Shown: positions 1-25,564 of the stretch, in pieces
Numbering within the stretch: position 1 is the first letter of the stretch
Layout: the number at the start of each line of letters is the position of its first letter
Source of the DNA: Parasphingopyxis algicola
GTDB lineage: Bacteria > Pseudomonadota > Alphaproteobacteria > Sphingomonadales > Sphingomonadaceae
DNA length: 64,000 nucleotides
Reading direction: 5' to 3'
Assembly: GCF_013378075.1 (NCBI RefSeq)
Contig: NZ_CP051131.1
Coordinates: 372,001-436,000 of the forward strand
The notes under the pieces: model-generated
What the model saw: the letters and a program-made list of their open reading frames with translations, nothing else
Databases searched by the model: none
What the model was told of the DNA's origin: nothing
Program-made: the position numbers and the translations under genes

Positions 1-430
1 ATCGGCCAGCAGGTGTCAGCACAAGGTCGAACGGATTCATATGCACTTTCTCGCCATCGACCGCAGTATGGGCGCCTCCACCTTCGAGCACGAAACGCAG
101 CGCGCTTTGGCTATGCCTATGGCAAGGGGCTGTCTCTCCGGGAAGCAGGAGTTGCAAGCCGGCATAAAGCATTTCAGTAATGCGGGCCTCGCCAGGGTAT
201 GCCGGATTCTCAAGCATCAGCACGCGTCGCTCCGCTTCGGCTGCCGATATGACCTCTCCTGAGCGATCGAGCAGAGGCAGCATGTCCTCGAAGTGCCAAG
301 CGTGGGGCTGAGAGCCGAGATTGGGCTCCGAGCTGACAAGGCTGCTCAGAACCGTCCATAGTGGCGCGGCCGCTGATTCTCGAAGGTCAGCATAAAGCTG
401 TTCCCGGTCAATGGTTCGGTTCTCGGACAT
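1..430 (-). CDS. gtdA: Gentisate 1,2-dioxygenase, N-terminal part (cut by left edge)
   Basis: Reverse-strand reading from the ATG at 430 gives an uninterrupted 143-residue N-terminus that runs off the window. It has the cupin metal-site signature of gentisate dioxygenases: a PGE..P.HRH.QSALRF.LEG stretch at about residues 94-114, followed by a VDGE segment. The family opens the ring of gentisate (2,5-dihydroxybenzoate) to maleylpyruvate using Fe(II). The start lies one base beyond the stop of the dioxygenase beta subunit, so it is translated in the same operon as nagH and nagG. The next two pathway steps are encoded divergently at 3.5-4.9 kb. The C-terminal cupin lies outside the window. Confidence 0.88.
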   Translation of the reverse strand, partial: MSENRTIDREQLYADLRESAAAPLWTVLSSLVSSEPNLGSQPHAWHFEDMLPLLDRSGEVISAAEAERRVLMLENPAYPGEARITEMLYAGLQLLLPGETAPCHRHSQSALRFVLEGGGAHTAVDGEKVHMNPFDLVLTPAGR

Positions 431-431
431 T

Positions 432-902
432 CTACACGGGATAGATCAGCGAATTGGGGATCAATTCTGAGTCGAATATGCACTGCTTCTCGGCGATGCG
501 GAGCGCGCCATCCTCTTCAATGAGAGTATCGCGATACTCGCCAACAAGCAGGATGTCGCTTGGTTGGTCATTATGGGTCCGAATCACGAGCACATTCATA
601 GTAACTGCCAGTGACTCATCGCTTGGATCCAACAGTGGGATCCCGAGAATGTGCCGTTGGTAGTACGGGGCATGGTAAAGTGTTTCGGTGACCCCATAGA
701 TCCGATCGGCAATCATATCACGGCTTTCGAAGCGCATAGTGGCAAGCGGCAATCCAGCCTCGAAGTTTTCACGAGGTTGGACGAGATACGAGCATTCCTG
801 CGCGAACACGCCGAGCCATTCGTCGTATGCGCCGCTATCGAGCAGGGAAGCGTAACGAGCATAGAGGGCTTGCACAGCAATTTGCGTTTGGGCGTCGATC
901 AC
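432..902 (-). CDS. nagH: Salicylate 5-hydroxylase small (beta) subunit
   Basis: A 156-residue ring-hydroxylating dioxygenase beta subunit of the SnoaL/cystatin-like fold, the usual family length. The reading frame extends upstream to 1016, but I place the start at the GTG at 902. That gives a 4-base GTGA overlap with the alpha-subunit stop and removes a long overlap. Beta subunits have no catalytic residues and stabilise the alpha3beta3 hexamer. The partner is the Rieske alpha subunit just upstream, and gentisate dioxygenase follows one base downstream. The substrate is inferred from the alpha subunit and the gentisate genes. Related small subunits serve other aromatic acids. Confidence 0.85.
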   Translation of the reverse strand: MIDAQTQIAVQALYARYASLLDSGAYDEWLGVFAQECSYLVQPRENFEAGLPLATMRFESRDMIADRIYGVTETLYHAPYYQRHILGIPLLDPSDESLAVTMNVLVIRTHNDQPSDILLVGEYRDTLIEEDGALRIAEKQCIFDSELIPNSLIYPV

Positions 903-2155
903 AACTCCATGACCTCGCGATAGTATTCGTACATACCCCGGATCAAACACTCGGTTACCATGTGCTCGGTATTCTTGGTGCCGGTACCGTCGAGTTCCGA
1001 AACAGTTAGCGACCACGGGTCGCTAACCATACCTTGTTGGGCAAATTCGATTACCTCGCCGTCGTCGGCCGAAACGAAGCCGGCCGGGCCGAACAGGTTC
1101 GCTTGGCGCAATCTTCGTCGCGTCATCTCCTCGCTATCCTCGGCGAATCCAAAATGGGTCCACACGAAGTCGAAAGCATCGGGTCCGCGTGGAATGATGT
1201 GACGCGTGGACAGGGAGTTCACTTGCTGTTGTAAAATGACACTTGGAAATAGGGTGGTCATTACTACCGTCGGTTCACCCCACCATTCCTCGGGTACAAC
1301 GTCGAGCAAACGGCCGTCATTAAGCTCAAGCCCCTTGCGAAAACTCGAAACACCTTTGGTGACTTCGCCGTCTCCTCCCGCATTGCGCGATGACACCATG
1401 CAGGCATGCCGTTTTCTCGCATCCATGATCATGCAACTTTTCTGATCCGCGCGCCAAAGACCGAAAGTGACAAACCAAGTGTGGAGAAGACCCGGGTGAT
1501 AGCCATCCTTGATGTTTTCCATCATCAATTTCCAGTTTCCCGGAATTCGCTGGCGCGAATAGCCGAGCACCTTGAGGTCCCGTCCATCAAAGGTACGATC
1601 ATAATAGGCGAGAACCTCGGGGCCGAGATATTCCTCCAACGGTTCGACATCGTGATCAAAGCAGGCGAAGATCAGGCCGCCGCGCACGGCAACTTTGAGC
1701 TTGGTTAGACCGTGATCCTCAAGCGCGAAATCTTCTGGCATCCCGCCTTGGCCCTTCACACCATTGCGGAACGGCACGCCGAGCAGCCGACCGTCGAGAG
1801 AATAGCTCCACTGATGGTACGGGCACACGAGCGTTTTTGCCTGGCCGAACTTTTTGCGACAGAACCGGACCCCGCGATGTGCACAGTGGTTCTCGACGAC
1901 ATGTACTTCGCCGTGCCGGTCGCGCGTAACAATAACAGCCCGTTCGCCAACCCAGCTTGTCTTGAAGGATTTGGGTTCCGGTAGCTCGGCTTCGAGTCCG
2001 ACGTAGCACCAGTGGCGGCCATAGAAGATGCGTTCGAGCTCGCGTTCGTAGATGTCGAGGTCGGAATAGAGCCAGTACGGGACGCGGCTTACGGAGTCCT
2101 GCATCCAGGCCGCGAGTGGAGCGGAAGCGTCAGTGTGGCTTTGTTTGTCGGTCAT
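899..2155 (-). CDS. nagG: Salicylate 5-hydroxylase large subunit (Rieske oxygenase)
   Basis: 418 residues, the normal length for Rieske non-heme iron oxygenase alpha subunits. The [2Fe-2S] ligands are visible as C91-x-H93 and C111-x2-H114. The mononuclear iron ligands are in ENIKDGYHPGLLH (H220 and H225, with bridging D217). As I recall the NagG family (salicylate to gentisate), the match is close along most of the protein, including the QQQVNS and FGPAGFVSADDGEVIE stretches. Neighbouring gentisate genes support this. The ferredoxin and reductase that must feed electrons are not in the window. It overlaps the upstream transporter by ATGA and the beta subunit by GTGA. A 5-substituted or amino-salicylate substrate remains possible. 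Confidence 0.87.
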   Translation of the reverse strand: MTDKQSHTDASAPLAAWMQDSVSRVPYWLYSDLDIYERELERIFYGRHWCYVGLEAELPEPKSFKTSWVGERAVIVTRDRHGEVHVVENHCAHRGVRFCRKKFGQAKTLVCPYHQWSYSLDGRLLGVPFRNGVKGQGGMPEDFALEDHGLTKLKVAVRGGLIFACFDHDVEPLEEYLGPEVLAYYDRTFDGRDLKVLGYSRQRIPGNWKLMMENIKDGYHPGLLHTWFVTFGLWRADQKSCMIMDARKRHACMVSSRNAGGDGEVTKGVSSFRKGLELNDGRLLDVVPEEWWGEPTVVMTTLFPSVILQQQVNSLSTRHIIPRGPDAFDFVWTHFGFAEDSEEMTRRRLRQANLFGPAGFVSADDGEVIEFAQQGMVSDPWSLTVSELDGTGTKNTEHMVTECLIRGMYEYYREVMEL

Positions 2156-3426
2156 GTCGGGAGTTCCTTGGAAGAGGGAGATTTGCGGCCAAGCAGGAGA
2201 AAGACCGCTGTGGGGACCAGGGTGGACGCCGCGGCCGCCAAAAACAGTCCTTCGAGGCCGACGCCGCGTGCGAGCAGGATGCCGCCTATGGCAGGACCTG
2301 CGACCGCTCCGATGCGTCCCACACTCAGGGCCCAGCCAACGCCGCTTGCGCGCAGCAACGCCGGATAGGCGGCTGCGGCGAAAGCATTGCCACCCAGCTG
2401 GCCGCCAATCACGCCGATGCCAGCGCAGAATATGGCCGGGAGCAGGAGTGCCGAAGCAGGTTCGATCTGGCCGACGAGCGCCACTGCGATTCCGGCGAAA
2501 CCGAACGTGACAGGGAGTATGCGAAAGGCGCCGAACCGGTCGATCAGCGGATTGATCAGCAGCCCGCCGGCGATACCCCCGACATTGAGGATCACGGTAG
2601 TCTGGCTGGCCGCCTCGAATGACAGACCGGCTTCGGTGAAGACGCTGGGCATCCAGTTAATCAGGAAATAGAGAGCAAAGAGATTGGCAAAGAATGCCAG
2701 CCAGAGCAGCGCGCTCAATCCGCGAAACTCTTTCGAAAACAACTGCCCGACCGGTACGAGATTGGGTTTGGCGAGGCCCCTGTTACTCAGCCAGTCTGGC
2801 GATTCCTTAAGCGCCCACCACAGGATGGGTGCGAGAATCAGCGGGAATATGCCGCCGATGACGAAGATCAGTTCCCAACCGCCGGCTTCCACCATGGCCG
2901 GTGCGGCCAGCCCACACATCAGCGCGCCAGCGGGAAAGCCGCAGAACATGACGCCAAGCGCCAGCGCACGATGCCGCTCGGGCGCGTGCTCGGCCGTGAG
3001 AGCGATCAGGTTCGGAATGGCGGCCCCGAGCCCGATCCCGGTCAAGAATCGCCACAAGAGCAGTTCGCCCATTGTACTCGACGTTGCGGTGAGAAGGGAG
3101 AATAGACCAAAAATTGCCGCAGCGATGCAAATAATGGGTTTGCGTCCCCACCGGTCGGCGGCCGCGCCGAAAAGAGTGCTGCCGATCATGAGGCCCAGCA
3201 GCGCTGCCGAGAAGACCGGGCCGAAGGCGTTCGTTTTCACGCCCCAGAGGGGAGCGATGACAGGACCGGCAAAGGCTATTGCTTGCGTGTCGTACCCGTC
3301 GAGCAGCGCCACGGTCGCGCAGAGCACTAGTACGCGCAGGAAGTGCGGGCTGCCCTCCTTGCCCGGTGTTGTGCGGTCTACTTTTGGGTCGGAAATATCG
3401 AGATTCTCGGCGGCAGTTGCAGGCAA
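2152..3426 (-). CDS. AAHS-family aromatic acid:H+ symporter (MFS)
   Basis: A 424-residue major facilitator with about 12 hydrophobic segments. It carries the LDGYDTQAI motif (D43, D46) in the first membrane segment, the hallmark of aromatic acid/H+ symporters such as PcaK, BenK and GenK. The cytoplasmic loop GSTLFGAAADRWGRKP is the MFS motif after TM2. The start is a TTG at 3426 with a GGGGAG about 9 bases upstream. It leads the operon MFS-nagG-nagH-gtdA, and its stop overlaps nagG by ATGA. Salicylate or gentisate is the likely cargo by context. Expression is probably driven from the divergent control region that contains the palindrome at 3485. Confidence 0.85.
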   Translation of the reverse strand: MPATAAENLDISDPKVDRTTPGKEGSPHFLRVLVLCATVALLDGYDTQAIAFAGPVIAPLWGVKTNAFGPVFSAALLGLMIGSTLFGAAADRWGRKPIICIAAAIFGLFSLLTATSSTMGELLLWRFLTGIGLGAAIPNLIALTAEHAPERHRALALGVMFCGFPAGALMCGLAAPAMVEAGGWELIFVIGGIFPLILAPILWWALKESPDWLSNRGLAKPNLVPVGQLFSKEFRGLSALLWLAFFANLFALYFLINWMPSVFTEAGLSFEAASQTTVILNVGGIAGGLLINPLIDRFGAFRILPVTFGFAGIAVALVGQIEPASALLLPAIFCAGIGVIGGQLGGNAFAAAAYPALLRASGVGWALSVGRIGAVAGPAIGGILLARGVGLEGLFLAAAASTLVPTAVFLLLGRKSPSSKELPT

Positions 3427-3484
3427 GCTTCGAAACTCCCCAGATTGACAAGGCGTATCCGCGATAGCAGGTTGCGGGGGTTAC

Positions 3485-3497
3485 TGATAGTCTATAA
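3485..3497. promoter_or_regulatory. Putative operator, copy 1 (nag divergent promoter)
   Basis: TGATAGTCTATAA, an inverted repeat with one mismatch (perfect form TTATAG-N-CTATAA). It lies between the divergent AAHS transporter operon (start 3426) and the fumarylpyruvate hydrolase gene (start 3544). It is followed by ATTAATG, as in copy 4. It is one of five related sites in the 25-kb cluster. The binding protein is unknown; the TetR protein at 7834-8490 is the only candidate in the cluster. Confidence 0.6.
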
Positions 3498-3543
3498 ATT
3501 AATGTTTGGGTAAGCTTTACGCAAGGAAAAGGAGACCCTGCCT

Positions 3544-4242
3544 ATGAGTTCGATCAATATGCTCTGGCCCGCGCCTGCGCCCGTGCTGCTGCCGGTCGAT
3601 AGTATTGAAGAAATGTTCCCGGTACGGCGTGTCTATTGTGTCGGTCGCAATTACGCCGCACACGCTAGGGAGATGGGGAGTGACGAGCGCGAGCCGCCCT
3701 TTTTCTTCACCAAATTCGCCGACACCGCCGTACCGTCAGGCGGTTCCGTCCTTTATCCGCCGCGTACCAAGAATTTTCACTTCGAAGGCGAACTGGTGAT
3801 CGCTATCGCCGAGCGGGCCGGAGCGGTCAGCGTGGAAGATGCACTGGATTCGGTTTACGGATACGCCGCCGGGCTCGACATGACTCGCCGCGACCTGCAG
3901 CTCGAGGCGCGCGACAAGGGTCGGCCGTGGGACACCGGCAAGAACTTCTCGGAAGCCGCCATAGTCGGGCCGATCTGCCCGAAGGCGCCGTTCGGAGAAC
4001 AGTTCGACGGCAAGGGCTTGCGACTTTCCGTTAACGGTCAGGTCAGGCAGCAAACCGCCCTTGGGCTGATGATCTGGTCCTGCGCGGAAATCATCGCCGA
4101 ACTCAGCACCTATGACGAACTCCATCCCGGTGACCTGATCTTCACTGGCACGCCGGAGGGAGTGGGCGCTGTCGAACGCGGCGACAGTATTGAACTCGTG
4201 ATCGACGGATTGCCGAGATGTGAAATTGAAGTCGCGAAATGA
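3544..4242 (+). CDS. nagK: Fumarylpyruvate hydrolase (FAH family)
   Basis: 232 residues of the fumarylacetoacetate hydrolase fold, the usual length for NagK-type enzymes that split fumarylpyruvate into fumarate and pyruvate. The N-terminal motif VYCVGRNYAAHAREMG (about 30-45) is typical. The metal ligands appear as E81, E83 and D112 in FHFEGELV and GLDMTRRDLQ. The C-terminus has the ..GDLIFTGTPEGVG.. stretch of the family. The ATG at 3544 has GGAGA upstream. Its stop overlaps the maleylpyruvate isomerase start by ATGA, so the last two steps of gentisate catabolism are coupled. A homologous acylpyruvate hydrolase role is the alternative. Confidence 0.88.
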   Translation: MSSINMLWPAPAPVLLPVDSIEEMFPVRRVYCVGRNYAAHAREMGSDEREPPFFFTKFADTAVPSGGSVLYPPRTKNFHFEGELVIAIAERAGAVSVEDALDSVYGYAAGLDMTRRDLQLEARDKGRPWDTGKNFSEAAIVGPICPKAPFGEQFDGKGLRLSVNGQVRQQTALGLMIWSCAEIIAELSTYDELHPGDLIFTGTPEGVGAVERGDSIELVIDGLPRCEIEVAK

Positions 4243-4871
4243 GCGGCTATGTCTTGCACGATTTTCCGCGTGCATCGTCGGCCTATCGTGTGCGCATTGC
4301 GCTCGCGCTGAAAGGCATTGAATATACAGCAAAGCCTGTCGATTTTCGCCAAGACGAGCAAAGCAGCGAAGCCTATCTCGCTGTCAATGCTGCGGGCCTG
4401 GTCCCAGTCCTAGAAACGCCAGAAGGCAACGTGATCACTCAGTCGTTGGCGATAATAGGTTATCTGGACCGGCTTGATGGACCACGCTTGTATCCGGAAA
4501 AGCCTGTTGATCGAGCGATTGTGGACGCGATGGCATTGACCGTTGCCTGCGATATCCACCCGCTCAACAATCTTCGCATTCTCAAATATCTGGAACACGA
4601 GCTCATGTGTGATGAGGGTTGCCGGAAGCGATGGTATGCCCAATGGGTGACGCGCGGCTTCGTGGCGCTTGAAGCGCTCGTCCAAGCGCATGGTGGACGC
4701 TTCTGTTTCGGCGATGAGGTCAGTGCAGCTGATATTTGTCTTGTTCCCCAAATATATAATGCCCGCCGCTTTGATGTATCGCTCGAGCAATTCCCGGCTT
4801 TGATTGTACGCGACGACAGATTGCGCTCGCACGCAGCGTTCGATGCCGTGCACCCTGAACGGCCTGTGTGA
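4239..4871 (+). CDS. nagL: Maleylpyruvate isomerase (zeta-class GST)
   Basis: 210 residues with a thioredoxin-fold N-terminal GST domain and a helical C-terminal domain. The active-site motif SSAYRVRIAL at residues 13-22 is the zeta-class signature (SSCS-type, here SSAY), as in NagL and maleylacetoacetate isomerase. It isomerises maleylpyruvate to fumarylpyruvate using glutathione. The start overlaps the hydrolase stop by ATGA. With genes 1-5 it completes salicylate to fumarate plus pyruvate. The maleylacetoacetate isomerase alternative is less likely because gentisate dioxygenase is present and homogentisate dioxygenase is not seen. Confidence 0.87.
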   Translation: MSGYVLHDFPRASSAYRVRIALALKGIEYTAKPVDFRQDEQSSEAYLAVNAAGLVPVLETPEGNVITQSLAIIGYLDRLDGPRLYPEKPVDRAIVDAMALTVACDIHPLNNLRILKYLEHELMCDEGCRKRWYAQWVTRGFVALEALVQAHGGRFCFGDEVSAADICLVPQIYNARRFDVSLEQFPALIVRDDRLRSHAAFDAVHPERPV

Positions 4872-4877: not shown

Positions 4878-4890
4878 TTATTGACTATAA
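4878..4890. promoter_or_regulatory. Putative operator, copy 2 (TonB receptor promoter)
   Basis: TTATTGACTATAA, matching the pattern TTATWSNSWATAA, followed by GTT as in copy 5. It lies 55 bases before the TonB receptor start. A weaker look-alike, TTATCACATATAA, is at 4911-4923, so this promoter may have two sites. Confidence 0.55.
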
Positions 4891-4944
4891 GTTGACGTTG
4901 GTATAGCAATTTATCACATATAAGTTCATAATGGGGAGGTGGTA

Positions 4945-7068
4945 ATGCGGACGGTGAGCAAGCGGATCTTGATGATTGGCGCATGCGTCGGGGCGTTGGC
5001 GCAGGCAACTGGAGTTGCTGCGCAGGAAGTGGATGAGGGCGAGGAGAATTCCGCGCCGACCATCATCGTCACCGGCGAACGTGTCGATCGCACGCTTATG
5101 GAAACGGCGTCGAGTGTCGACGTGTTTTCGGCCGACGACATCAATTCGCTCGCCGTTCCCGATACTGTTTCCGGCCTTCTTACTGTTGTCCCAAATGTCA
5201 CGCAGACGGGCGGAAATGCCGGGCCGACGATCCGCGGTAGCAACACCAGCGGCGTGCTTACCGATGCCGAAGGCGCTTTTGGGGGTGCTCGTCCACGCAC
5301 GACGATTCAGATCGACGGGCGTCCGTTGACGTACAACGAATATGTGTTTGCGGGGGCGTCGATCTGGGATCTGACTTCGGTGGAAGTTTTCCGCACTCCG
5401 CAGACGACGACGCAGGGCCGCAACGCGATCGCCGGGGCGATCTTTCTCAATACCGCCGACCCGACCGATATGTTCGAAGCTTCGGTCCGTGGGATCGTCG
5501 GCAATTACGACACCTATCAGGGCTCGGCCTACATTTCCGGTCCGATCTTGGGCGACGCTGTCAGTTTCCGGGTCTCGGGCGATTACCGGCAGCAGCGCAG
5601 CGCGATTGCCACCCAAGCAGGCAGCGCGACGGGCGACGATCTGGGGGTCGGCTCCGTGCGCCGCGAATATATCGGCACACTTCGGTCAAAATTGCGTATT
5701 CAGCCTGCTGGCGGGAATGTCAGGGTTGACCTGATTTATGCTCATCAGGAGACTGGTCGTCCGCAAGTCGAAGCGGTCGATACGACCCTGCCGGGCCGTG
5801 TCCGTGCCAATCCTTTTAATCCGTACTTTGAAGTGAATTCGGATAGCATTACCGGCATCGTCGACATCGATCTTGGCGATGGCTTCGGTTTTCGCAACAC
5901 CACGACCTATGCCGACGCGGTGGCGCGTCGCTTCGTGCCGGAAGTGATCAGTCCGGTGACCGGGGAACTCGGCTTCGAAGGCCTTGGCCGACTTGCGCAG
6001 GAGGAATTCACCAATGAACTGTTGCTTTCCTACGAAAGCGACAGCCTCGAGGGGGTGGCCGGACTATATTATCTCGATTCCGATGCGGACGACTTCCTCG
6101 ATATCACCTTCTTCGGTCTTTACGGCGGCACGTTCGTCGACCAAAGCCGGAGTTACGGTATCTTTGGCGAGTTTACCTACTCGCTGACCGAGCGCCTGCA
6201 CGTAACGCTGGGCGGCCGCTATCAGCGCGATACGCAGATCCGTGATGGGGGTTATTCCTTCAATCCCGGTTTCATGCCCGGCGATCCGCTGGACATCGAC
6301 ATCATGCTCGATAAGGAGTTCGACGCGTTTCTGCCCAAGGGCGGCATCGCCTTTGACGTGACCGATGATGTGCGGATCGGCGCCACGGTTCAGCGCGGCT
6401 ACAATCCGGGCGGTCGGACGTTCTCTTTCACGTCGTTCGAAGTGATTGACTTCGCGGCCGAGTTCGTCACCAATTTCGAACTCTACATGCGCTCGCAATT
6501 GCTCGACAACCGGCTGATCTTCAATGCCAACCTGTTCTATTCCGACTTCGAGAACGCACAGCGGGTGATCGAGGAGGATTTGGGCAACGGGTTCACGAAT
6601 TTCGTGTTCTCGAACGCTGAAGATGCGCGGGCGGTTGGGTTTGAAGTCGATGCTACGATGGAGGCCAGCGACATTGTGAGCTTCGGTCTTGGCTTGGGCT
6701 ACAACGACACCGAACTTGAGCGCTACACACTACAACCGGGTGTGGAAGGGAACGCATTTGCCCGCGCGCCGAAATTCTCCGCTTCCGGATCGATTTTCAT
6801 CACTCCCGTCGAGAACTTAACGATCAGCTTCACGGGCCGCTACACAGACGGATATTTCTCGGAAGATTCGAACGAAACGGTCAATCGCATCGATTCGGCC
6901 TTCTTCGCCGATGCGCAGGTGGCGTACGACACTGGCACATGGCGCGTTTTCGTAAGTGCGCAGAACCTGTTCGATCACGATCACATTGTGCTTCTCACGA
7001 ATTCCGGGACGCGGGCAACCTTTGCCGATCCGTTCGAGGTAATGGGCGGCGTGCAAGTCAGGTTTTAA
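4945..7068 (+). CDS. TonB-dependent outer-membrane receptor
   Basis: About 707 residues. I start at the ATG at 4945 because GGGGAGG ends 5 bases before it; an in-frame GTG lies two codons upstream. An N-terminal signal peptide ends near VAAQ. The plug domain follows (PTIIVTGERVD, then the NVTQTGGNAGPTIRGSN region at about residues 75-95), and then a long beta-barrel ending in VQVRF with terminal Phe, as expected for BAM insertion. Sphingomonads use many such receptors for non-siderophore substrates. Its place inside the catabolic cluster behind operator copy 2 suggests it imports the cluster's substrate. The substrate itself cannot be read from the sequence. Confidence 0.9.
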   Translation: MRTVSKRILMIGACVGALAQATGVAAQEVDEGEENSAPTIIVTGERVDRTLMETASSVDVFSADDINSLAVPDTVSGLLTVVPNVTQTGGNAGPTIRGSNTSGVLTDAEGAFGGARPRTTIQIDGRPLTYNEYVFAGASIWDLTSVEVFRTPQTTTQGRNAIAGAIFLNTADPTDMFEASVRGIVGNYDTYQGSAYISGPILGDAVSFRVSGDYRQQRSAIATQAGSATGDDLGVGSVRREYIGTLRSKLRIQPAGGNVRVDLIYAHQETGRPQVEAVDTTLPGRVRANPFNPYFEVNSDSITGIVDIDLGDGFGFRNTTTYADAVARRFVPEVISPVTGELGFEGLGRLAQEEFTNELLLSYESDSLEGVAGLYYLDSDADDFLDITFFGLYGGTFVDQSRSYGIFGEFTYSLTERLHVTLGGRYQRDTQIRDGGYSFNPGFMPGDPLDIDIMLDKEFDAFLPKGGIAFDVTDDVRIGATVQRGYNPGGRTFSFTSFEVIDFAAEFVTNFELYMRSQLLDNRLIFNANLFYSDFENAQRVIEEDLGNGFTNFVFSNAEDARAVGFEVDATMEASDIVSFGLGLGYNDTELERYTLQPGVEGNAFARAPKFSASGSIFITPVENLTISFTGRYTDGYFSEDSNETVNRIDSAFFADAQVAYDTGTWRVFVSAQNLFDHDHIVLLTNSGTRATFADPFEVMGGVQVRF

Positions 7069-7080: not shown

Positions 7081-7530
7081 ATGAGGGCTTCGCTTAAATG
7101 TGTAGCGTTTCTGGCGCTGATATGCAGCACTCAAGGGTTCGCTCAAGAAACCGACACGCTCGGTGTTCCGTATGGCGGCCGGACTATCTTGCTCATGGTT
7201 CCAGACGATGATCTCGCGGTGCCATTTACCATTCAGGCAGACGGCACGATGAAATATATTGACATTCATCTCGACGACGGTGGCTTGTCAGGCAGCTATG
7301 TCCGCACCGTCGCCTATGAACTGAGAGGCGAGCAAAACGAAACATTTTGCGTTATTAAAGAGTCGCCCGTCTGTTTCGACTTTCCCGAGCTCACGACAAG
7401 TGTACCCGTGCCGGTCAACGTTGTCGCCTATGATACCCAAGGAGCGGAGGAGTGGACTGGCGGCGGACTTCTCATGTTAATGGAAGAGCGCTCGCCCTTC
7501 GCCGGAGAAGCGACGACAGGCGGCGAGTAG
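7081..7530 (+). CDS. Small exported protein of unknown function
   Basis: 149 residues from the ATG at 7081, with AAAGGAGAG just upstream. It begins with a signal peptide (hydrophobic core ending CSTQGFAQ, cleavage near residue 22). The mature part is acidic, with predicted beta strands and two cysteines about 13 residues apart (CVIKESPVCF) that could form a disulfide. It starts 12 bases after the TonB receptor stop, so they are co-transcribed. A periplasmic accessory role to that receptor is an inference from position only. I recognise no family. Confidence 0.7.
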   Translation: MRASLKCVAFLALICSTQGFAQETDTLGVPYGGRTILLMVPDDDLAVPFTIQADGTMKYIDIHLDDGGLSGSYVRTVAYELRGEQNETFCVIKESPVCFDFPELTTSVPVPVNVVAYDTQGAEEWTGGGLLMLMEERSPFAGEATTGGE

Positions 7531-7833
7531 CCCTGTTTCGGTCAGCCAGCAAAACGGGCAGGATGACTTGCCTTCAGCGAATGTTCGGCGTTTACAAGAC
7601 GCTCACGACACGCAATCGCCTTGTGTGTATGATACCGTCTTTGGCGGCATCACACCGCTGATCGCTCCTGCTGCGCAACTTTAAGCTAGGGGGCCGGTCT
7701 TCGATCATTGAGCGTGTTAGCGAATGGCTGGCTTCGATAGGCAATAATACTTTCCGCGAACGATGTAGACCTTTGCCAAGCCTGGAGACATTGTGGGCTC
7801 AGGTCACGGATCAGCATAATGCCTGACACTCGG
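7531..7833. other. Intergenic stretch with no recognised gene
   Basis: About 300 bases between the convergent small exported protein and the TetR gene. I see no convincing ORF, strong terminator hairpin or operator copy here. Confidence 0.5.
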
Positions 7834-8555: not shown

Positions 8556-8568
8556 TTATACCGTATAA
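8556..8568. promoter_or_regulatory. Putative operator, copy 3 (tetR/MFS divergent promoter)
   Basis: TTATACCGTATAA, a perfect 6-1-6 palindrome, located between the divergent TetR gene (start 8490) and the MFS gene. This autoregulatory position is typical for TetR proteins. It matches the shared pattern, with C-G instead of G-C at the inner pair. Confidence 0.62.
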
Positions 8569-8608
8569 ATAATAAGTGCGGGAGGCATTACTGACTGCAA
8601 ATTCTTCA

Positions 8609-15032: not shown

Positions 15033-15034
15033 CG

Positions 15035-15796: not shown

Positions 15797-15814
15797 GGTC
15801 ATCTCCAGACGTCG

Positions 15815-18953: not shown

Positions 18954-19020
18954 TCTTGCCTCCTGCCGCAATTATGTGGCGTTCCCGGCAGGGCCGCCGG
19001 ATCGCCGGATACATGACTTG

Positions 19021-19033
19021 TTATAGGCTATAA
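19021..19033. promoter_or_regulatory. Putative operator, copy 4 (aminotransferase/VOC divergent promoter)
   Basis: TTATAGGCTATAA, a perfect 6-1-6 palindrome between the divergent aminotransferase operon (start 18953) and the glyoxalase-like gene (start 19053). It is followed by ATTAAT, the same downstream bases as copy 1. Its closeness to the right-hand start suggests repression by steric block. Confidence 0.62.
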
Positions 19034-19052: not shown

Positions 19053-19943
19053 ATGCATAAGCACGACGAAACCCGGTTACCCGCGCTCCCACTCGACCAT
19101 CTGATGCTCTGCACGTCCGACTGGCGGGTTGGCCGCCAAGCCTACGAGCGCCTCGGATTCAGGTTAACTCCGCTCCGTCGGAACGCCCCGATGGGCGGTG
19201 GAGACGGCGCGGATGGCGGCAGCCAGCTTGTCATGCTCGGCGGCGGGCGTGACGGTATCCTCAACTATCTCGAACTTTCGACTGCCGTGCCGGACAAGGC
19301 CGCCCCCCTCATGCGCCAAATTCTTATACACGATGGCCCAGTCATGATGGTCCATTATGCCGCGGATATTGCCCGTTTCACGGAGCATTGGAGCAGCTTG
19401 GGTGTACAGGTGCACCGGTTCGAGGCGGCCTTTCCCGCATCGGGCTCGCTGGGGGGAGGGCGTTTCGATATCGCGATCGCCGATCCGCAGTCCGTGCCGC
19501 TGCAATTCAACGTCGTTTGTAGCACGGATCGGAGTGGGTATCGCGACGCGGAATGGCAGGTGCATGACAATGGTGCGCTCGCATGGCGCGAGGTCATCGG
19601 GGTCGTTCCCGATGGCGATCTCGATGCAGTCGCGGAACGCCATAGCCGGTTGATCGGCATTGAACCGGTTCAAAGTGAAGAAGGCGTGCGTTTCGACGCA
19701 GGGCCGGTCGATATTCGGCTTATCGCGGCTTCGATGGCGGAGGCGGAGTGGCGCGATATCGGTTTTCAAACTCGCGCCGCGCCCCAGATTGCGGGTCTAC
19801 GGATCACCGTTCGCGATCTCGCGACTTTTGAAAAACTGATGACGTCGCGCGGTGTTGCGTGCCTTCGCAGCGGGGACACGGTGCTGGTTGGTCCGCAAGA
19901 CGCCGCCGGTAGCGTGATGCTGTTCTCGGAGGAGCTATCATGA
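19053..19943 (+). CDS. Glyoxalase-like (VOC) domain protein
   Basis: 296 residues, with LDHLMLCTSDWRVG near the N-terminus resembling the Glyoxalase_3 type of vicinal oxygen chelate fold. A second half-domain (about residues 155-296) suggests two modules. Candidate metal-binding residues include the first H of LDHL and E in NYLELS. VOC proteins include dioxygenases, lyases and isomerases, so the reaction is not predictable. It stands first in a two-gene unit and overlaps the racemase-like gene by ATGA. Confidence 0.75.
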   Translation: MHKHDETRLPALPLDHLMLCTSDWRVGRQAYERLGFRLTPLRRNAPMGGGDGADGGSQLVMLGGGRDGILNYLELSTAVPDKAAPLMRQILIHDGPVMMVHYAADIARFTEHWSSLGVQVHRFEAAFPASGSLGGGRFDIAIADPQSVPLQFNVVCSTDRSGYRDAEWQVHDNGALAWREVIGVVPDGDLDAVAERHSRLIGIEPVQSEEGVRFDAGPVDIRLIAASMAEAEWRDIGFQTRAAPQIAGLRITVRDLATFEKLMTSRGVACLRSGDTVLVGPQDAAGSVMLFSEELS

Positions 19944-20689
19944 CGAATAACAGCGAACAAAAGCTTGCGCCCGGCCGCGCGATCGAGGGGTATGCCGTCG
20001 GCGTGCTGCATCTCGGTTCCACGTATCCGCTGCCGCCTGGAAATGCGCAGCACGCCCAGTCCTACGATTTCCCGGTGGCGTTCGAAGCGGTCGCCATCGA
20101 CGATCCCTTCGCATTGATGCGGGGTGAAGATCACATCGGCGAACTTCTGATTGAAGCCTGTTGCCGGCTGGAACGACGCGGCGTTCGAGCAATCGTCGGC
20201 GCGTGCGGCTCTTTCGCTTATTACCAGCGCATGGCCGCCGACGCATCGCGCGTTCCCGTTTACACATCCGTCCTGACCCAGATACCGTTTCTGCTTCAGG
20301 CGCTCGGCAGCCGACCTCTCGGAGTAATCTGTGCCTCGGCATCGTCGATGAACGAGCGGATCTACGACCAGTGCGGCATCGACGATCCGGACCGGCTGGT
20401 AATCGGCGAGATGCGCGGCATGAGCGAATTCGACGCCATGCTCGAAGGGGACCGCCCGATGGATGAGCGATTACTGTGTGAACAGACTTGCGAGGTTGCC
20501 GGCAGACTGCTTGATACGGCACCCGATGTCGGCGGAATAGTCCTGCAATGCAGCGACCTGCCACCGTATGGTTGTGCGATTCAATTGGCGACCGGCCTAC
20601 CGCTCTACGACGCGGTTACGCTGGTAAATTGGGCTCGTAACGGGGCGGACTATCCCGCCTATGACGGGATGCGGCGCGTTATGCGCTGA
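19940..20689 (+). CDS. Aspartate/glutamate racemase superfamily protein
   Basis: 249 residues. The two catalytic cysteines expected of the Asp/Glu racemase and maleate isomerase superfamily are seen in GACGSFAYYQ (about residue 92) and LQCSDLPPY (about 197). The family includes amino acid racemases, maleate isomerase, arylmalonate decarboxylase and hydantoin racemase. In this cluster racemisation of an amino acid or cis-trans isomerisation of a diacid are equally possible. It converges with the 3-hydroxyacyl dehydrogenase gene with 6 bases between stops. Confidence 0.78.
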   Translation: MTNNSEQKLAPGRAIEGYAVGVLHLGSTYPLPPGNAQHAQSYDFPVAFEAVAIDDPFALMRGEDHIGELLIEACCRLERRGVRAIVGACGSFAYYQRMAADASRVPVYTSVLTQIPFLLQALGSRPLGVICASASSMNERIYDQCGIDDPDRLVIGEMRGMSEFDAMLEGDRPMDERLLCEQTCEVAGRLLDTAPDVGGIVLQCSDLPPYGCAIQLATGLPLYDAVTLVNWARNGADYPAYDGMRRVMR

Positions 20690-20695
20690 ACGAAC

Positions 20696-21646
20696 TCAAC
20701 CACCATAATCGGGCTGAGCCGCCTTGTGCTTGAGCAACGCCATCAGCCTTTTGTCCCGCCAGCGCTGGCCATCGATAATCTCGTCCGTGGGTATGAGCTG
20801 TTCCATTTCCGCGCTGATGTCTTCCGCCAGCCCGTATGGCCAATCATTGCGCGTGGCCAGATCGCCGATCATCCGCCGGAATGTGCCACCATAGCTGTCA
20901 TCGCGCATATAGTCGCGATAGCCGCCCGACGCGTTGAGGTGGCCGGTCTGAAACGGACCCATGAACGCCCAGCGCAGACCGAGGCCGTCGCTCATCGCCC
21001 GATCGAGATCGGTCGCCGAGCAATATCCTTCACCGACCAGATGCAGCGCCTCGGCCACGACTGCCGCCTGGAGTCGATTGAGCAGGAACGCCTTGATCTC
21101 TTTTTTCACCACGACGGGCGACATGCCGATCGCTTCCAGCAAATTCCTCGTGCTAGCGATCGCGTCGTCCGCCGTGCCGGGATGGCCGGCGATTTCGACC
21201 AGCGGGATCAGATAGGGCGGATTGAATGGGTGGGCGACCAGCACACGCGCGCTGTTCTCAACTTGCTCGATCAGCTGCGATGCCATGAATTCCGAACTTG
21301 AACTCGCGATGATCGTGTCGGGATCGCACAGCGAATCCAGCTCCGCGAAAAATGCTTGCTTGATTGCGAGATTCTCGACGATGCATTCCTGAACATGCGC
21401 GCATTCGCTGACCGCCTCATCCAAATTGGACAATGCGCTGATACGCTCTCCAATCGCGGCGGGATCGTCGATCAGATTAGCGTCCGCCAGATCCCGGAGA
21501 CTGGCCGCGATATGCGCCAGCGAGCGCTCAAGGTTGTCAGAGTTGGTGTCGTACAAACGAACATTGCAGCCACCACGGGCGAACGAGATCGCCCATGCAC
21601 GGCCGATATTCCCAACCCCGACACAGGCGACGTTTGCGGTTTCCAT
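20696..21646 (-). CDS. 3-hydroxyacyl-CoA dehydrogenase family enzyme, carnitine 3-dehydrogenase-like
   Basis: 316 residues. The N-terminal Rossmann motif is CVGVGNIGRAWAISFARGG, with D34 or so (LYDTN) indicating NAD. The Ser/His region AHPFNPPYLIPLVEI and the C-terminal domain FLLNRLQAAVVAEAL belong to the 3HCDH family. The size and the neighbouring BKACE and thioesterase genes match the CdhA-CdhC-CdhB set of bacterial carnitine breakdown, where the 3-hydroxy acid is oxidised to a 3-keto acid. The actual 3-hydroxy acid here is unknown. It is divergent from the BKACE operon, with operator copy 5 between. Confidence 0.83.
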   Translation of the reverse strand: METANVACVGVGNIGRAWAISFARGGCNVRLYDTNSDNLERSLAHIAASLRDLADANLIDDPAAIGERISALSNLDEAVSECAHVQECIVENLAIKQAFFAELDSLCDPDTIIASSSSEFMASQLIEQVENSARVLVAHPFNPPYLIPLVEIAGHPGTADDAIASTRNLLEAIGMSPVVVKKEIKAFLLNRLQAAVVAEALHLVGEGYCSATDLDRAMSDGLGLRWAFMGPFQTGHLNASGGYRDYMRDDSYGGTFRRMIGDLATRNDWPYGLAEDISAEMEQLIPTDEIIDGQRWRDKRLMALLKHKAAQPDYGG

Positions 21647-21691
21647 GACACACTTTCCCTATCTGCAGATGATCATTGACCTCCTCTTTAT

Positions 21692-21704
21692 TTATTGCCT
21701 ATAA
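21692..21704. promoter_or_regulatory. Putative operator, copy 5 (dehydrogenase/BKACE divergent promoter)
   Basis: TTATTGCCTATAA, followed by GTT as in copy 2. It lies between the divergent dehydrogenase (start 21646) and BKACE (start 21734) genes, about 30 bases before the BKACE start codon. Confidence 0.58.
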
Positions 21705-21733
21705 GTTTATCAAGCCGCAATCGGGAGGACAGC

Positions 21734-22669
21734 ATGCGGAAAGCATCGAAAGTCATAATTACTTGCGCATCGACGGGGTCGGTGCACACGCCAACCATGT
21801 CGCCATATTTACCAATCACGCCTAACGAGATAGCGAGCGATGCGTTGGCTGCGGTGGAGGCGGGCGCATCGATATTGCATCTCCATGCGCGCAATCCGGA
21901 AACCGGTCAGCCGACACAGGATCCGGAAATCTTCAGCCAGTTTCTACCGCGCATCAAGCAACAGTCCGACGCAGTGATCAATATTACCACCGGCGGCGGG
22001 CTGGGCATGCCGCTTGAGCAGCGCGTCGCTGCCGCACACTACGCCAAACCCGAGGTCTGTTCACTTAATATGGGATCGATGAACTTCGCCGCGTTCGAGT
22101 TGGCCAATAAGTACAAAGACTGGAAGTTTGATTGGGAAAAACCCTATCTCGAAAGCACCTACGCCGGCATCTATCCAAATACGTTCGAGATGATCGATCA
22201 CATCCTGACTCATGTCGGCGATGCTTATGGGACCAAGTTCGAATTCGAATGCTACGAGGTGGGCCACCTCTACAACTTGGCCTATTTCGTTCGCAAGGGA
22301 CGGATCAAGCCGCCGTTTCTCATCCAATGCATATTCGGCATCCATGGCGGGATCGGCGCCGATCCGGAAAACCTGATGCATATGCGCACAATCGCGGACA
22401 AGCTGTTCGGCGATGATTATTATCTGTCCGTCCTCGCCGTCGGCAAGGATCAGATGAAGTTCCTGACAATGAGTACCGCGATGGGCGGCAGTGTGCGCGT
22501 TGGCCTGGAAGACAGCCTCTATATTGGCAAGGGTGAGCTTTCGAAGGGCAGCGCCGAGCAGGTAAAGCGCATTCGCGGGATCGTCGAAGGGCTCGGCTTG
22601 GAAGTTGCCTCTCCGACGGAGGCGCGCGACATGCTCGACCTCAAGGGCGGCGATCAGGTAGGCTTCTGA
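21734..22669 (+). CDS. Beta-keto acid cleavage enzyme (BKACE, DUF849)
   Basis: 311 residues, standard BKACE length. Zinc ligands H49 and H51 lie in ILHLHARNPETGQ, and ITPNEIASDALAAVEAGAS and NITTGGG are family landmarks. These enzymes react a beta-keto acid with acetyl-CoA to give acetoacetate and a new CoA ester, as in lysine fermentation (Kce) and carnitine breakdown (CdhC). I start at the ATG at 21734, with GGGAGG 6 bases upstream; the frame extends further without a ribosome site. Its stop overlaps the thioesterase start (TGATG). The substrate side chain is not readable by eye. Confidence 0.87.
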   Translation: MRKASKVIITCASTGSVHTPTMSPYLPITPNEIASDALAAVEAGASILHLHARNPETGQPTQDPEIFSQFLPRIKQQSDAVINITTGGGLGMPLEQRVAAAHYAKPEVCSLNMGSMNFAAFELANKYKDWKFDWEKPYLESTYAGIYPNTFEMIDHILTHVGDAYGTKFEFECYEVGHLYNLAYFVRKGRIKPPFLIQCIFGIHGGIGADPENLMHMRTIADKLFGDDYYLSVLAVGKDQMKFLTMSTAMGGSVRVGLEDSLYIGKGELSKGSAEQVKRIRGIVEGLGLEVASPTEARDMLDLKGGDQVGF

Positions 22670-23094
22670 TGGCGGCTATCGATACCTTTCGCGGTGCGGC
22701 TCATCCTTGGCTGTGCGATGTGATGGGCCATCTCAACACGCGCAATTATGTCGCCATGTTCGATGATGCGAGCATGCATCTGATCGCGGCTCTAGGTTAT
22801 GACTTTGCAGAGGCGAGGGCAGGCAAATTCGGCTGGGCGGATGTGCATGTTGAAATCGATCTTCTGGCCGAAGTAGGTAAGGGGGAGTTAATTAAAATAT
22901 CTAGCTGCATCCCGCAGCTCGGTAATTCGTCGCTGACATCGCGGCACGAGATGACCGATCTTTCCGGCGAGCGCGTTTTCGCTCGCTATACCGTCAAGAC
23001 CGTGTTCTTTGATCTTCAGGCCCGCAAATCGCATTCTATACCAGACACATATCGCGCAGCGGCGGCCGAGATAGCGCACGACGACTTACAATGA
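22669..23094 (+). CDS. Acyl-CoA thioesterase (4HBT hotdog family), CdhB-like
   Basis: 141 residues of a single hotdog domain. The active-site motif is D17-VMGHLNTRNYV, as in 4-hydroxybenzoyl-CoA and betainyl-CoA thioesterases. Following a BKACE it should hydrolyse the CoA ester made there. In carnitine breakdown this releases glycine betaine; here an aromatic acid such as salicylate is also conceivable. It is translationally coupled on both sides (TGATG with BKACE, ATGA with the PepSY gene). Confidence 0.82.
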   Translation: MAAIDTFRGAAHPWLCDVMGHLNTRNYVAMFDDASMHLIAALGYDFAEARAGKFGWADVHVEIDLLAEVGKGELIKISSCIPQLGNSSLTSRHEMTDLSGERVFARYTVKTVFFDLQARKSHSIPDTYRAAAAEIAHDDLQ

Positions 23095-24245
23095 CCACCA
23101 GCACTTCATCGCGCCGACAGTTCTGGCTGAGTGTGCATGGTTGGCTCGGCGTATTTGCCGCCCTTTTCTTACTACTCGTGGCCCTGACTGGAAGCGCTCT
23201 CGTTTTCATTGAGGAAATGGTCGAGGTGCAGGTTGGGGAAGCGGCACAAGCTTCTGCCCACGGGGAGTGGCAGCCGCCCGATGTCATGATCGACCGAGCG
23301 TCGACCTATGCCGGCGCTGCATTCCAGCCGATGCAGGTATACTATCCCAACACCTTGCTGAAAATTAGCTCCGCTTTCGTCTACGGACAGGGAGGCAGGT
23401 TCGCCGAAGGCCCAGAAGATGAAGTCTTGATCTTTATGGATGCGGTCAATGGCCGCCCACTGGCAGGTTGGCGCCTGGAAGAGCTTTGGGCGGATATTAT
23501 CCTGCATCTTCATTTTCAGCTTCTGGCGGGCGATGCTGGCGGAGTTTTCATTGCCTTCTGCGGCATTGCGCTATTTGTGTCCGTCTTCACGGGTATCTAT
23601 CTCTGGTGGCCGCGACGCCGCGTGCTGAAGAAGCTCGCAATTCCCAAATTGCGCGGCAAACTGCGCAAGGTGCTGTTCGATCTTCACGGTTTCGCGGGCA
23701 TTTATTTTGCCGTCCTGATCGCCATTCTGGCTTTTTCCGGAACGCAGCTTTCACAGCCGTCGTGGCTGAATGCGGTTTTACCAGCGGATTATGAAGCGAT
23801 CCCACCGACCGCACAGCAGGATTTTGAAACCTGTGATAGCGGCCAACCTTCGCCAGATCAGCTTGCCGCTGTTACTCAGCGTTTTCCGACACGAACAGTG
23901 TCGATCTACAATCCCGCCTTCGGTGACTATCCCGCGCATATTCGCCTCAAAGGCGCTGGCGATATCGATGCTTTCTTCGGCGACGTTTACGCGTGGATCG
24001 ATTGCAACGGAAATACTCTCGTCACCGACTTATCGCAGGCGGATATGGCGACCGTGGTGGCATTAGCGCAGTATTCGGTTCATTCTGGCCGTATCGCCGG
24101 TCCGATTGGCCGGCTGCTCGTGTTCCTGTCCGGCTTGGTGCTGTCCCTCTTGGCGCTTAGCGGGATCTACCTGTTCCTGAAACGCAGGCTACGCAAACAA
24201 CCAAATGGGCAATCGAAGCGAGCCGGGTTGGAAAGCGGATCGTGA
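23091..24245 (+). CDS. PepSY-associated transmembrane protein
   Basis: 384 residues. The N-terminus FWLSVHGWLGVFAALFLLLVALTG and later FDLHGFAGIYFAVLIAILAFSG are typical of PepSY_TM proteins, with about four membrane helices and a periplasmic PepSY-like region near residues 55-85. Conserved histidines in the helices suggest heme or metal binding. Such proteins often accompany TonB receptors and act as inner-membrane reductases, but the function is not established here. It overlaps its neighbours by ATGA and GTGA. Confidence 0.8.
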   Translation: MTTSTSSRRQFWLSVHGWLGVFAALFLLLVALTGSALVFIEEMVEVQVGEAAQASAHGEWQPPDVMIDRASTYAGAAFQPMQVYYPNTLLKISSAFVYGQGGRFAEGPEDEVLIFMDAVNGRPLAGWRLEELWADIILHLHFQLLAGDAGGVFIAFCGIALFVSVFTGIYLWWPRRRVLKKLAIPKLRGKLRKVLFDLHGFAGIYFAVLIAILAFSGTQLSQPSWLNAVLPADYEAIPPTAQQDFETCDSGQPSPDQLAAVTQRFPTRTVSIYNPAFGDYPAHIRLKGAGDIDAFFGDVYAWIDCNGNTLVTDLSQADMATVVALAQYSVHSGRIAGPIGRLLVFLSGLVLSLLALSGIYLFLKRRLRKQPNGQSKRAGLESGS

Positions 24246-25564
24246 ACAGAGCTGCGGAAGAAGGCCCGCGCTGGTCATCGCAGGCCATGTTTCTGCTGGC
24301 TGCAATGGGCACCACCATCGGGCTGGGAAACATCTGGCGTTTTCCCTTCGTCGCGGGAGAAAGCGGAGGTGGCGCCTTTCTGTTGGTCTATCTCGCGGCT
24401 CTTGTTCTGATCTCGATCCCAGTCATGATTGCCGAGCTCCACCTAGGGCATGCGGGCAGGCGTGATCCTGTCCATGCCATTGCTGCTGTCGCGACCAACG
24501 CCGGACGTTCACCGCGATGGGGCTGGATTGGCCATCTCATGGCTGCGATGGGGCTCTTATATCTGTTCTATTACCCGCTGATAGGAAGCTGGGCGCTGCA
24601 CTATGTGCAGCTCGCTCTTGACGGCACTCTCGAGGCTGCTTCGGCCGAGGACTTGCCGGGCTTGTATGACGATCTACAGTCGGACAAGCCACGCATGGTG
24701 CTACTGCATACGCTGTTCCTGCCATTGGCTGCCATCATTACGGCGCTGGGTGTGCAGGGCGGCCTGGAAAAGCTCTCCAAATTCGTCATGCCGCTGCTCC
24801 TTTTGCTGCTCTTTTCGCTCGTGCTCTATGCCGCGCTCACCATTGGCCTTTCATCCGGACTTGCTTTTCTCTTTACGCCCGATTTTTCCAAACTGAACGC
24901 TTCCGTAGTGCTTGCAGCCGTCGGGCAGGCACTTTTCAGTACAGCCGTGGGGCAGGGCGTGTTGCTGGTTTATGCGGGATATTTGAGAGGAAATGTGCCG
25001 CTGGGCCGATACAGTGCGATCATCTGCCTGTTCGATGGCTTTGTCGCGGTCACCGCCGGTGTCTTTATCTTCTCGATCGTTGCCGCGTTCGGCCTGACTC
25101 CGGCGGCTGGCGAGGGGTTGGTCTACATGGCACTTCCGCTCGCCTTTGCCGATATGCCGGGTGGATCAAGCGTGGCCGCCGCGTTTTTCCTGATGCTGGC
25201 ACTCGCAGCCTTCACCTCGGTCGTGCCGACGGTCGAATTGCTGGCCCGTTGGTGCGAACGCCAATTCAGCTGGCGCCATGCTCGTGCAGCGCTCGCTGTT
25301 GGCGCTATCTCGTGGCTCGGCGGTTTAACCGTCATATTCACGCAGGCGGGCGAGGGCCCCAATCTCCTGCGAATCTACGATTATCTGGTATCAAACCTCA
25401 TGATTCCGATAGCCGCGCTCCTGATGGCCCTGTTCGTGGGCTGGTTCCTTCCGCGCGTGACAGAAGCACGGACTCAAACGAGCTCGAATACGATCATCTG
25501 GCACTGGTGCCTTCGATTGATCGCGCCCTGCGCAATCGCAGTCGTGCTGATAATGGGACTGTGA
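24242..25564 (+). CDS. SNF-family sodium-dependent symporter
   Basis: 440 residues with 11-12 hydrophobic segments. The first helix contains GTTIGLGNIWRFPF, the Na+ and substrate site motif of the neurotransmitter:sodium symporter family (LeuT-like). Bacterial members import amino acids or related amines with Na+. The GTG start at 24242 overlaps the PepSY stop (GTGA). Its place at the end of the BKACE operon suggests it imports the amino or betaine-like part of the substrate. A few residues shorter than eukaryotic forms, as is usual in bacteria. Confidence 0.87.
   Translation: MNRAAEEGPRWSSQAMFLLAAMGTTIGLGNIWRFPFVAGESGGGAFLLVYLAALVLISIPVMIAELHLGHAGRRDPVHAIAAVATNAGRSPRWGWIGHLMAAMGLLYLFYYPLIGSWALHYVQLALDGTLEAASAEDLPGLYDDLQSDKPRMVLLHTLFLPLAAIITALGVQGGLEKLSKFVMPLLLLLLFSLVLYAALTIGLSSGLAFLFTPDFSKLNASVVLAAVGQALFSTAVGQGVLLVYAGYLRGNVPLGRYSAIICLFDGFVAVTAGVFIFSIVAAFGLTPAAGEGLVYMALPLAFADMPGGSSVAAAFFLMLALAAFTSVVPTVELLARWCERQFSWRHARAALAVGAISWLGGLTVIFTQAGEGPNLLRIYDYLVSNLMIPIAALLMALFVGWFLPRVTEARTQTSSNTIIWHWCLRLIAPCAIAVVLIMGL

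Follow-up and report, generated by a model that had tools for sequence, protein, structure and literature searches.

Organization of the cluster

The 64,000-nucleotide stretch of Parasphingopyxis algicola DNA considered here (the window; contig NZ_CP051131.1, positions 372,001 to 436,000) carries in its positions 1-25564 a catabolic cluster in which a salicylate-gentisate module (the left half) adjoins a series of amide- and amine-type modules (the right half). Gene calls are the open reading frames of the window, and family matches are profile scores read against the cut-offs of the families. The genes that a first-pass annotation had listed are all real open frames, lie at the positions given there and have family matches.

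Region 1-25564 is arranged as divergent transcription units. The genes gtdA, nagH, nagG and a gene for a transporter of the MFS family (minus strand) face those for an FAH-family hydrolase and MaiA (plus strand), behind which lies a TonB-dependent receptor. A TetR-family regulator gene (7834-8490, minus) is divergent from an operon headed by a second MFS transporter (MFS2; 8576-9934, plus), and the stops and starts of its MFS2, M24, amidase and DoeB-like genes overlap. The aminotransferase, RidA, aldehyde dehydrogenase (ALDH), SDR and M81 genes (minus) are paired with VOC and racemase genes (plus). In the last pair, a 3-hydroxyacid/acyl dehydrogenase (HCDH) gene (minus) faces those for a beta-keto acid cleavage enzyme (BKACE), a thioesterase, a PepSY_TM protein and a transporter of the Na+:neurotransmitter-symporter family (NSS) (plus).

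A palindrome shared by both halves

Five of the seven promoter gaps compared, spanning both halves, contain a 13-bp palindrome, TTATAGNCTATAA. Site P1 (TGATAGTCTATAA, 3485-3497; all sites are given on the plus strand) lies between the MFS/nagGH/gtdA and FAH/maiA units, and P2 (TTATTGACTATAA, 4878-4890) between maiA and the TonB receptor gene. P3 is a variant (TTATACCGTATAA, 8556-8568) in the gap between tetR and the MFS2/M24/amidase/DoeB-like operon. P4, which is perfect (TTATAGGCTATAA, 19021-19033), separates the aminotransferase operon from VOC/racemase, and P5 (TTATTGCCTATAA, 21692-21704) separates HCDH from the BKACE operon. All five fall within the intergenic DNA, which with inferred gene starts amounts to 787 of the 25,564 bases, and stand 7-65 bp from a start codon. 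Neither the gap at 25560-25840 nor that at 7525-7840 has the palindrome; the latter contains no more than a two-mismatch site at 7735.

At no more than one mismatch, TTATWGNCTATAA occurs at six distinct places in the 3.67-Mb genome, and four of these are cluster sites within 18.2 kb; the others lie about 14 bp before a minus-strand frame (2831543) and inside a frame (3622451). The leave-one-out scores of the five sites are reached by 2, 0, 2, 0 and 0 of 399,760 background positions, the background being 400 kb of host genome with promoters included and both off-cluster places deliberately kept in. A scan for the sigma-70 consensus gave 7 promoter-like sites, compared with 8.5 expected from shuffled sequences. 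A Fur-type global site was considered and rejected, the motif being too rare in the genome. Four further two-mismatch sites were not counted in the regulon: that at 7735, in the gap before tetR; one at 14575; L002:5138, in the gap between the Lrp and YeiH genes of the stretch left of the window (L002); and L002:12757, in the gap before an OprB porin gene.

The five sites probably mark one common regulon that covers both halves. Because they are close to start codons, and because one is at the promoter of the mid-cluster tetR gene, the palindrome may be the operator of a repressor of the TetR family; we infer that the TetR protein encoded at 7834-8490 binds it and is probably the regulator of the regulon. 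At 1e-15 this TetR protein has no relative in the order sample outside the host (195 genomes).

Several results weigh against so direct a reading. P3, at the tetR promoter itself, is two mismatches from the pattern, with C..G in place of G..C, and the two-mismatch site at 14575 is inside the M81 gene. Genome-wide, the pattern has 6+6 strand matches and its reversed control 7+6, so there is no enrichment; the striking feature is the clustering of four of the six places in 18.2 kb, not their genome-wide frequency. When the shared 13-mer is allowed two mismatches it is found in all five gaps, while none of 400 random intergenic sets reaches five gaps and one reaches four; with three mismatches four of the 400 reach five, and the test is post-selected, having used the five site-holding gaps of the seven read. 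Moreover, the pattern was derived from the sites themselves, and the figures express rarity and coherence rather than an unbiased probability. The binder, too, could be another protein: the LysR regulator encoded upstream is a rival through the T-N11-A form of the palindrome, a feature of LysR boxes. Against this rival, however, the gap between LysR and its divergent neighbour is only 5 bp and has no site at two mismatches.

The salicylate-gentisate half

On the minus strand, gentisate 1,2-dioxygenase (GtdA, 2-430) is cut by the window start; its full gene (L002:16372-17430) scores 430.1 bits, slightly below the cut-off of 442.1. It is adjoined by a NagH-like small oxygenase subunit (~432-905, start inferred), a NagG-like salicylate 5-hydroxylase large subunit (899-2155), assigned from a ring-hydroxylating oxygenase match and its relatives, and an aromatic acid/H+ symport MFS transporter (2152-3426). 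The plus strand encodes an FAH-family hydrolase (3544-4242), 47-52% identical to the FAH proteins of nag clusters, below the equivalog cut-offs and likely a fumarylpyruvate hydrolase, and a MaiA-type isomerase (4239-4871; 237 bits, cut-off 171), likely a maleylpyruvate isomerase.

The NagG of the window shares 64-67% identity with the large subunits encoded, with NagH adjacent, on three plasmids that carry nag or gentisate genes. The Blastomonas RAC04 plasmid, Sphingobium JS3065 pNIN2 and Paraburkholderia aromaticivorans all have this NagG-NagH pair, as does the window; GtdA, FAH and MaiA accompany it in RAC04 and P. aromaticivorans, and RAC04 additionally has MFS and TonB receptor genes nearby. 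Unlike these nag-type clusters, the window genes share an operator-like site with amide and amine modules, adjoin TetR and the M24 operon, and are without adjacent nagAa and nagAb. Neither a ferredoxin nor a NagAa reductase was seen in the cluster; no search aimed at ferredoxin was made.

The Nag subunits and gentisate genes recur as a unit elsewhere. At an E-value of 1e-120, NagG has matches in two genomes besides the host among the 196 of the order, and three of the 12 plasmid NagG loci listed, from 943 matching records, had their neighbourhoods read. Genes for GtdA, FAH and MaiA lie near NagG in both order genomes (L040, L041) and on two of the plasmids (L042, L044), while the third plasmid locus (L043) is a naphthalene-type cluster by annotation only. 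None of the four nag-gentisate loci, of 15-19 kb each, contains an M24, DoeB-like or aminotransferase relative at 1e-10. Since this holds for all four, the left half is a known module, able to travel independently of the right half. The first-pass annotation had joined the two halves in one pathway; gene neighbourhoods in the samples speak against that join, and the shared palindrome in the promoters of both halves speaks for it, the link being revived because this operator-like site is rare in the genome.

Two of these loci have further genes. L041 has an NSS-type transporter too (35% identity to that of the window), to which no weight is given. The L042 cluster on the Blastomonas RAC04 plasmid includes alcohol and aldehyde dehydrogenases, a BglX beta-glucosidase, an alpha/beta hydrolase and a TonB receptor, and looks like a pathway for salicin-like glucosides.

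The M24, amidase and DoeB-like proteins

The operon behind MFS2 encodes, on the plus strand, a divergent ectoine-hydrolase-like M24 protein (9931-11109), an amidase-signature enzyme (11106-12572) whose leader, read by eye, is Tat-like or lipoprotein-like, and a divergent DoeB-like deacylase (12572-13573). The M24 protein scores 321 bits with the NCBIfam model for ectoine hydrolase DoeA (TIGR02993, cut-off 613) and the DoeB-like protein 234.3 bits with that for N-acetyl-diaminobutyrate (DABA) deacetylase (TIGR02994, cut-off 402.7); neither passes. Twelve M24 relatives score 385.5-738 bits, ten of them also below the cut-off (385.5-603), and eight DoeB relatives 355-557 bits, five of them also below it (355-402). 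Both window proteins score below every relative scanned.

Aligned with nine relatives, the DoeB-like protein differs at 14 of the 72 columns that are otherwise invariant (a small deletion accounts for three), and each relative, given the same treatment, differs at 0-3 of 58-61. Two zinc-site motifs of DoeB, HGDE and DLH, are kept. The M24 protein differs at 6 of 37 otherwise invariant columns, set against 15 relatives; it is less of an outlier than the DoeB-like protein because two of these relatives (L022 and L014) differ at 5 and 7 columns, the others at 0-1.

Relatives of both proteins are sparse in the samples. DoeB relatives occur in one other genome of the 196 in the order at 1e-40 and, among 385 genomes of the class, in seven besides the host at 1e-60; M24 relatives occur in three other genomes of the 196 at 1e-60. 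With the DoeB-like query, one distant archaeal locus was confirmed among GTDB contigs, at 26% identity. One parallel is a cluster on contig C73 of genome G561 (L030), from the same class, which like the window holds together an M24 protein (40%), a DoeB-like protein (38%), an amidase (33% over part) and an SDR. It differs from the window in having a sugar-type ABC importer (by eye), no aromatic-gene match on the 19 kb read, and its aminotransferase relative (51%) on another contig. The M24-deacylase-amidase set therefore occurs at least twice.

Ectoine catabolism proceeds by EutD, EutE, the aminotransferase Atf and a succinate-semialdehyde-dehydrogenase (SSADH)-like enzyme, Ssd (PMC5924519, PMC13188858). 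Ectoine degradation clusters (DoeABCD/EutDE) have in common with the window the M24 and DoeB-family pair, an SSADH-like ALDH and a class III aminotransferase. In contrast to them, the window pair is below both family cut-offs and altered at conserved positions, and amidase, RidA and M81 genes are added; eutB, eutC and an ectoine transporter are absent from the family matches of the 1-25564 genes. Action of the right half on ectoine or carnitine only, a possibility raised in the first-pass annotation, is unlikely in the case of ectoine because neither the DoeA-like nor the DoeB-like protein passes the ectoine family tests.

The transamination and cleavage modules

The minus-strand operon beyond the deacylase gene encodes an M81 (MlrC-like) protein (13587-15032), an SDR oxidoreductase (15035-15802), an SSADH-like ALDH (15815-17314), a RidA-family protein (17311-17700, start inferred) and a class III aminotransferase (17691-18971). 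The aminotransferase is 58% identical to the product of a gene on plasmid p4 of Pararhizobium qamdonense (L025), and only 23-26% identical to the aminotransferases near DoeB relatives (L016-L018). Apart from the host, it has a match in one of 385 class genomes at 1e-90 and in none of 398 phylum genomes at 1e-80, in samples that overlap. Near its p4 relative lie genes for agmatinase, 5-guanidino-2-oxopentanoate decarboxylase, SSADH and an amine transporter, perhaps a guanidino-compound pathway.

Divergent from this operon are, on the plus strand, a Glyoxalase_3-type VOC protein (19053-19943) and a protein of the Asp/Glu racemase superfamily (19940-20689). On plasmid pTM2 of Tistrella mobilis (L092), a VOC relative (30%) is likewise followed by an Asp/Glu racemase gene, as at 19053-20689 of the window.

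HCDH (20696-21646, minus) passes PRK06129 (366 bits, cut-off 347) and reaches 202 of 592 and 156 of 414 bits with two carnitine 3-dehydrogenase models, below equivalog level. BKACE (21734-22669, plus, start inferred) passes NF053538, a 3,5-dioxohexanoate model (511 bits, cut-off 430), instead of one specific for dehydrocarnitine; the matches did not separate the substrate groups. Downstream on the plus strand are a 4HBT thioesterase (22669-23094), a PepSY_TM protein (23091-24245), for which a ferric-siderophore reductase role is possible, and the NSS transporter (24242-25564). The grouping of dehydrogenase, BKACE and thioesterase types around one promoter region is that of carnitine-type cleavage; the window differs from it in that the dehydrogenase passes PRK06129 and not the carnitine models, BKACE passes NF053538 and the transporter belongs to NSS. 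Of five plasmid neighbourhoods of HCDH relatives, those in Microvirga (L033) and Cereibacter (L034) have an adjacent BKACE and that in Caballeronia (L035) has one at most 8 kb away; none was seen in the remaining two (L032, L036). The four of these loci that were scanned (L033-L036) hold no M24, DoeB-like or NagG genes. In Shinella, BKACE adjoins betaine-type uptake genes. Plasmid searches with M24, M81, amidase, HCDH, BKACE, TetR and VOC returned single-module relatives, the neighbourhoods of some matches having been read.

The TonB receptor

The TonB-dependent receptor (4939-7068, plus) is siderophore-receptor-like. Its relatives, 33-35% identical, lie in siderophore loci, of catechol or non-ribosomal peptide type, in all four neighbourhoods read, one per organism group among the 8 rows listed of 243 matching records: with 2,3-dihydroxybenzoate genes in Rhodovulum, with FepB-type importers in Paracoccus and Shinella, and with non-ribosomal peptide synthetase genes and FepB on an Escherichia coli plasmid. 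Its match to the pesticin/yersiniabactin receptor, at 43.8 bits, is weak and was left aside in judging the substrate.

Location on a mobile element

A 19-bp direct repeat lies at L002:2774-2792 (genome C1:357774), just left of a tyrosine integrase gene (L002:2950-4119), and again at window 48038-48056 (plus strand), at the 3' end of a tRNA-Glu gene (48039-48113, minus). Given these positions, a mobile element of about 62 kb is integrated at tRNA-Glu and holds the whole catabolic cluster. Region 1-25564 is thus no natural unit: by the repeat, the island begins some 14 kb before window position 1 and runs to 48056. Within it are also a ParB-like protein (27606-29375, plus) and a MobA/MobL-helicase relaxase (31651-34548, plus). 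In the nine other genomes of the genus, some of which are incomplete, nothing matches the aminotransferase at 1e-60. In a search of these nine for an empty site, the tRNA gene and right flank match in seven, while the left flank matches contiguously in none.

A proposed pathway and its alternatives

We tentatively propose, as a reading that is plausible and still open to serious doubt, that the element carries one regulon for the uptake and catabolism of a salicyl-amide or salicyl-amidine compound. A repressor, most likely TetR 7834-8490, would bind the TTATAGNCTATAA palindromes before the start codons of both halves until the substrate, or a product of its breakdown, released it. The TonB receptor, MFS transport and the exported amidase would take up a salicyl compound linked as amide or amidine to an amino-acid-like amine, which the M24 and DoeB-like proteins would open and deacylate in the cytoplasm. 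NagGH, GtdA, MaiA and the FAH hydrolase would convert the freed salicylate to fumarate and pyruvate; the aminotransferase, RidA and ALDH would process the amine part, and HCDH, BKACE and the thioesterase a 3-hydroxy acid part. The substrate would then carry its salicyl group on a nitrogen, of amide or amidine type, in a unit resembling an amino acid, and would have other parts that are amines or 3-hydroxy acids; aryl-acyl amino acid or cyclic amidine chemistry, as suggested in the first-pass annotation, is a conjecture. Computation shows the gene content, the palindrome with its sharing and rarity, the divergence of the M24 and DoeB-like proteins and parts of the mobile element, whereas TetR binding and repression, the class of substrate and all right-half reactions are conjectural. 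If there is one regulon, its operator allows a pathway that could not be predicted from any one gene annotation to be tested directly and cheaply, and it suggests that enzymes of the M24 and DoeB types act on a new substrate. Searches for salicylate hydroxylase with ectoine hydrolase and for siderophore catabolism gave, among the papers listed, none on this gene combination, which is not proof that none exists.

To the reservations about the palindrome must be added others that concern the pathway. Among the 196 order genomes, the list of NagG matches shares no genome except the host with the M24 or DoeB lists, and no near relative fixes the substrate of the M24, amidase or DoeB-like protein. 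A JS3065 NagAa query, itself not validated, had no match in the host genome at 1e-10. Comparative genomics also goes part of the way towards the independent loci that the first-pass annotation said would refute it, with nag-gentisate genes free of M24, DoeB-like and aminotransferase relatives in four of four loci and HCDH-BKACE found in other contexts. Nor was a FepB-type siderophore importer seen among the genes of 1-25564.

The last point bears chiefly on the boldest candidate substrate, possibly a salicyl-capped siderophore, to which the loci of the TonB relatives and the PepSY_TM protein point; it is a lead only, because TonB identity is low and such an importer is missing from those genes. 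On this candidate, a dedicated mobile pathway would capture and eat an aryl-capped siderophore, all under one operator, a scheme that we consider unlikely as a whole. In it the TonB receptor would be of the kind for catecholate or salicylate siderophores, the PepSY_TM reductase would strip the iron, the exported amidase would take part, M24, derived from an ectoine hydrolase, would open a cyclic amidine or oxazoline, and the DoeB-derived deacylase would free salicylate. Gentisate cleavage would then deal with the ring, and transamination and BKACE cleavage with the parts that are amino and beta-hydroxy acids. Were the substrate a siderophore, the bacterium would use the iron carrier of another organism as both food and iron, and the ability would move on a mobile element.

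Other explanations place less on a single compound. The modules may form a co-regulated scavenging set, in which salicylate, ectoine-like and carnitine-like nutrients that occur together are used under one local regulator. This has a real if lesser chance of being right: it fits the nag-gentisate genes found apart (L040, L041, L042, L044), HCDH-BKACE on the Cereibacter and Microvirga plasmids and BKACE beside betaine-type uptake genes in Shinella, and the genes for three inner-membrane transporters, each of a different kind, suggest that several compounds are used. One specific operator for unrelated nutrients would, however, be less economical, and M24 and DoeB-like depart from the ectoine enzymes. 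That departure also makes it rather improbable that the right half is a cluster for the degradation of ectoine or hydroxyectoine in divergent form (DoeA, DoeB, DoeC-like ALDH, DoeD-like aminotransferase) set beside unrelated salicylate genes. All four enzyme types of the ectoine-to-aspartate route, as given in PMC5924519, are present, M24-DoeB-ALDH-aminotransferase sets exist in L016, L017 and L018, and HGDE and DLH are retained; since just two of 12 M24 and three of eight DoeB relatives pass the cut-offs, failing them alone is not decisive. Yet the window proteins are the lowest of all scanned and DoeB-like departs at 14 of 72 columns (relatives 0-3), although for M24, at 6 of 37, L022 and L014 come close. 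The aminotransferase, moreover, is nearer to the copy beside agmatinase than to those of L016-L018, and eutB, eutC and an ectoine transporter are missing from the 1-25564 genes.

Little credence is due to a third alternative, that independent cassettes have gathered on one island and that the palindrome is a chance likeness of AT-rich promoter sequence. Islands do collect unrelated cassettes, TATAA resembles a -10 box, and the sites were found by inspecting these very gaps, in a pattern not enriched over its reversed control. Chance agrees poorly with four of six places in 18.2 kb and with the leave-one-out scores against host DNA that includes promoters, and the sigma-70 scan lends no support to an ordinary promoter motif.

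Flanking genes

Left of the window, L002 contains the remainder of gtdA, a cupin, a dienelactone-hydrolase-like gene, LysR, an OprB porin and more genes, then the tyrosine integrase. Part of it (L002:4643-12649) encodes Lrp, a YeiH-type exporter, an aromatic-type aminotransferase, an AceE-like E1, an in-frame-broken E2 and a cystathionine gamma-synthase-family protein, and looks like an amino-acid or sulfur-compound module. A relative of the AceE-like gene (56% over 373 residues) is on an Octadecabacter arcticus plasmid (L086), about 6 kb from an M81 gene that is truncated where the stretch ends. At the other side, adjoining the end of the catabolic cluster, the frame at window 25828-26268 resembles by eye, with no Pfam match, a degenerate piece of a transposase.

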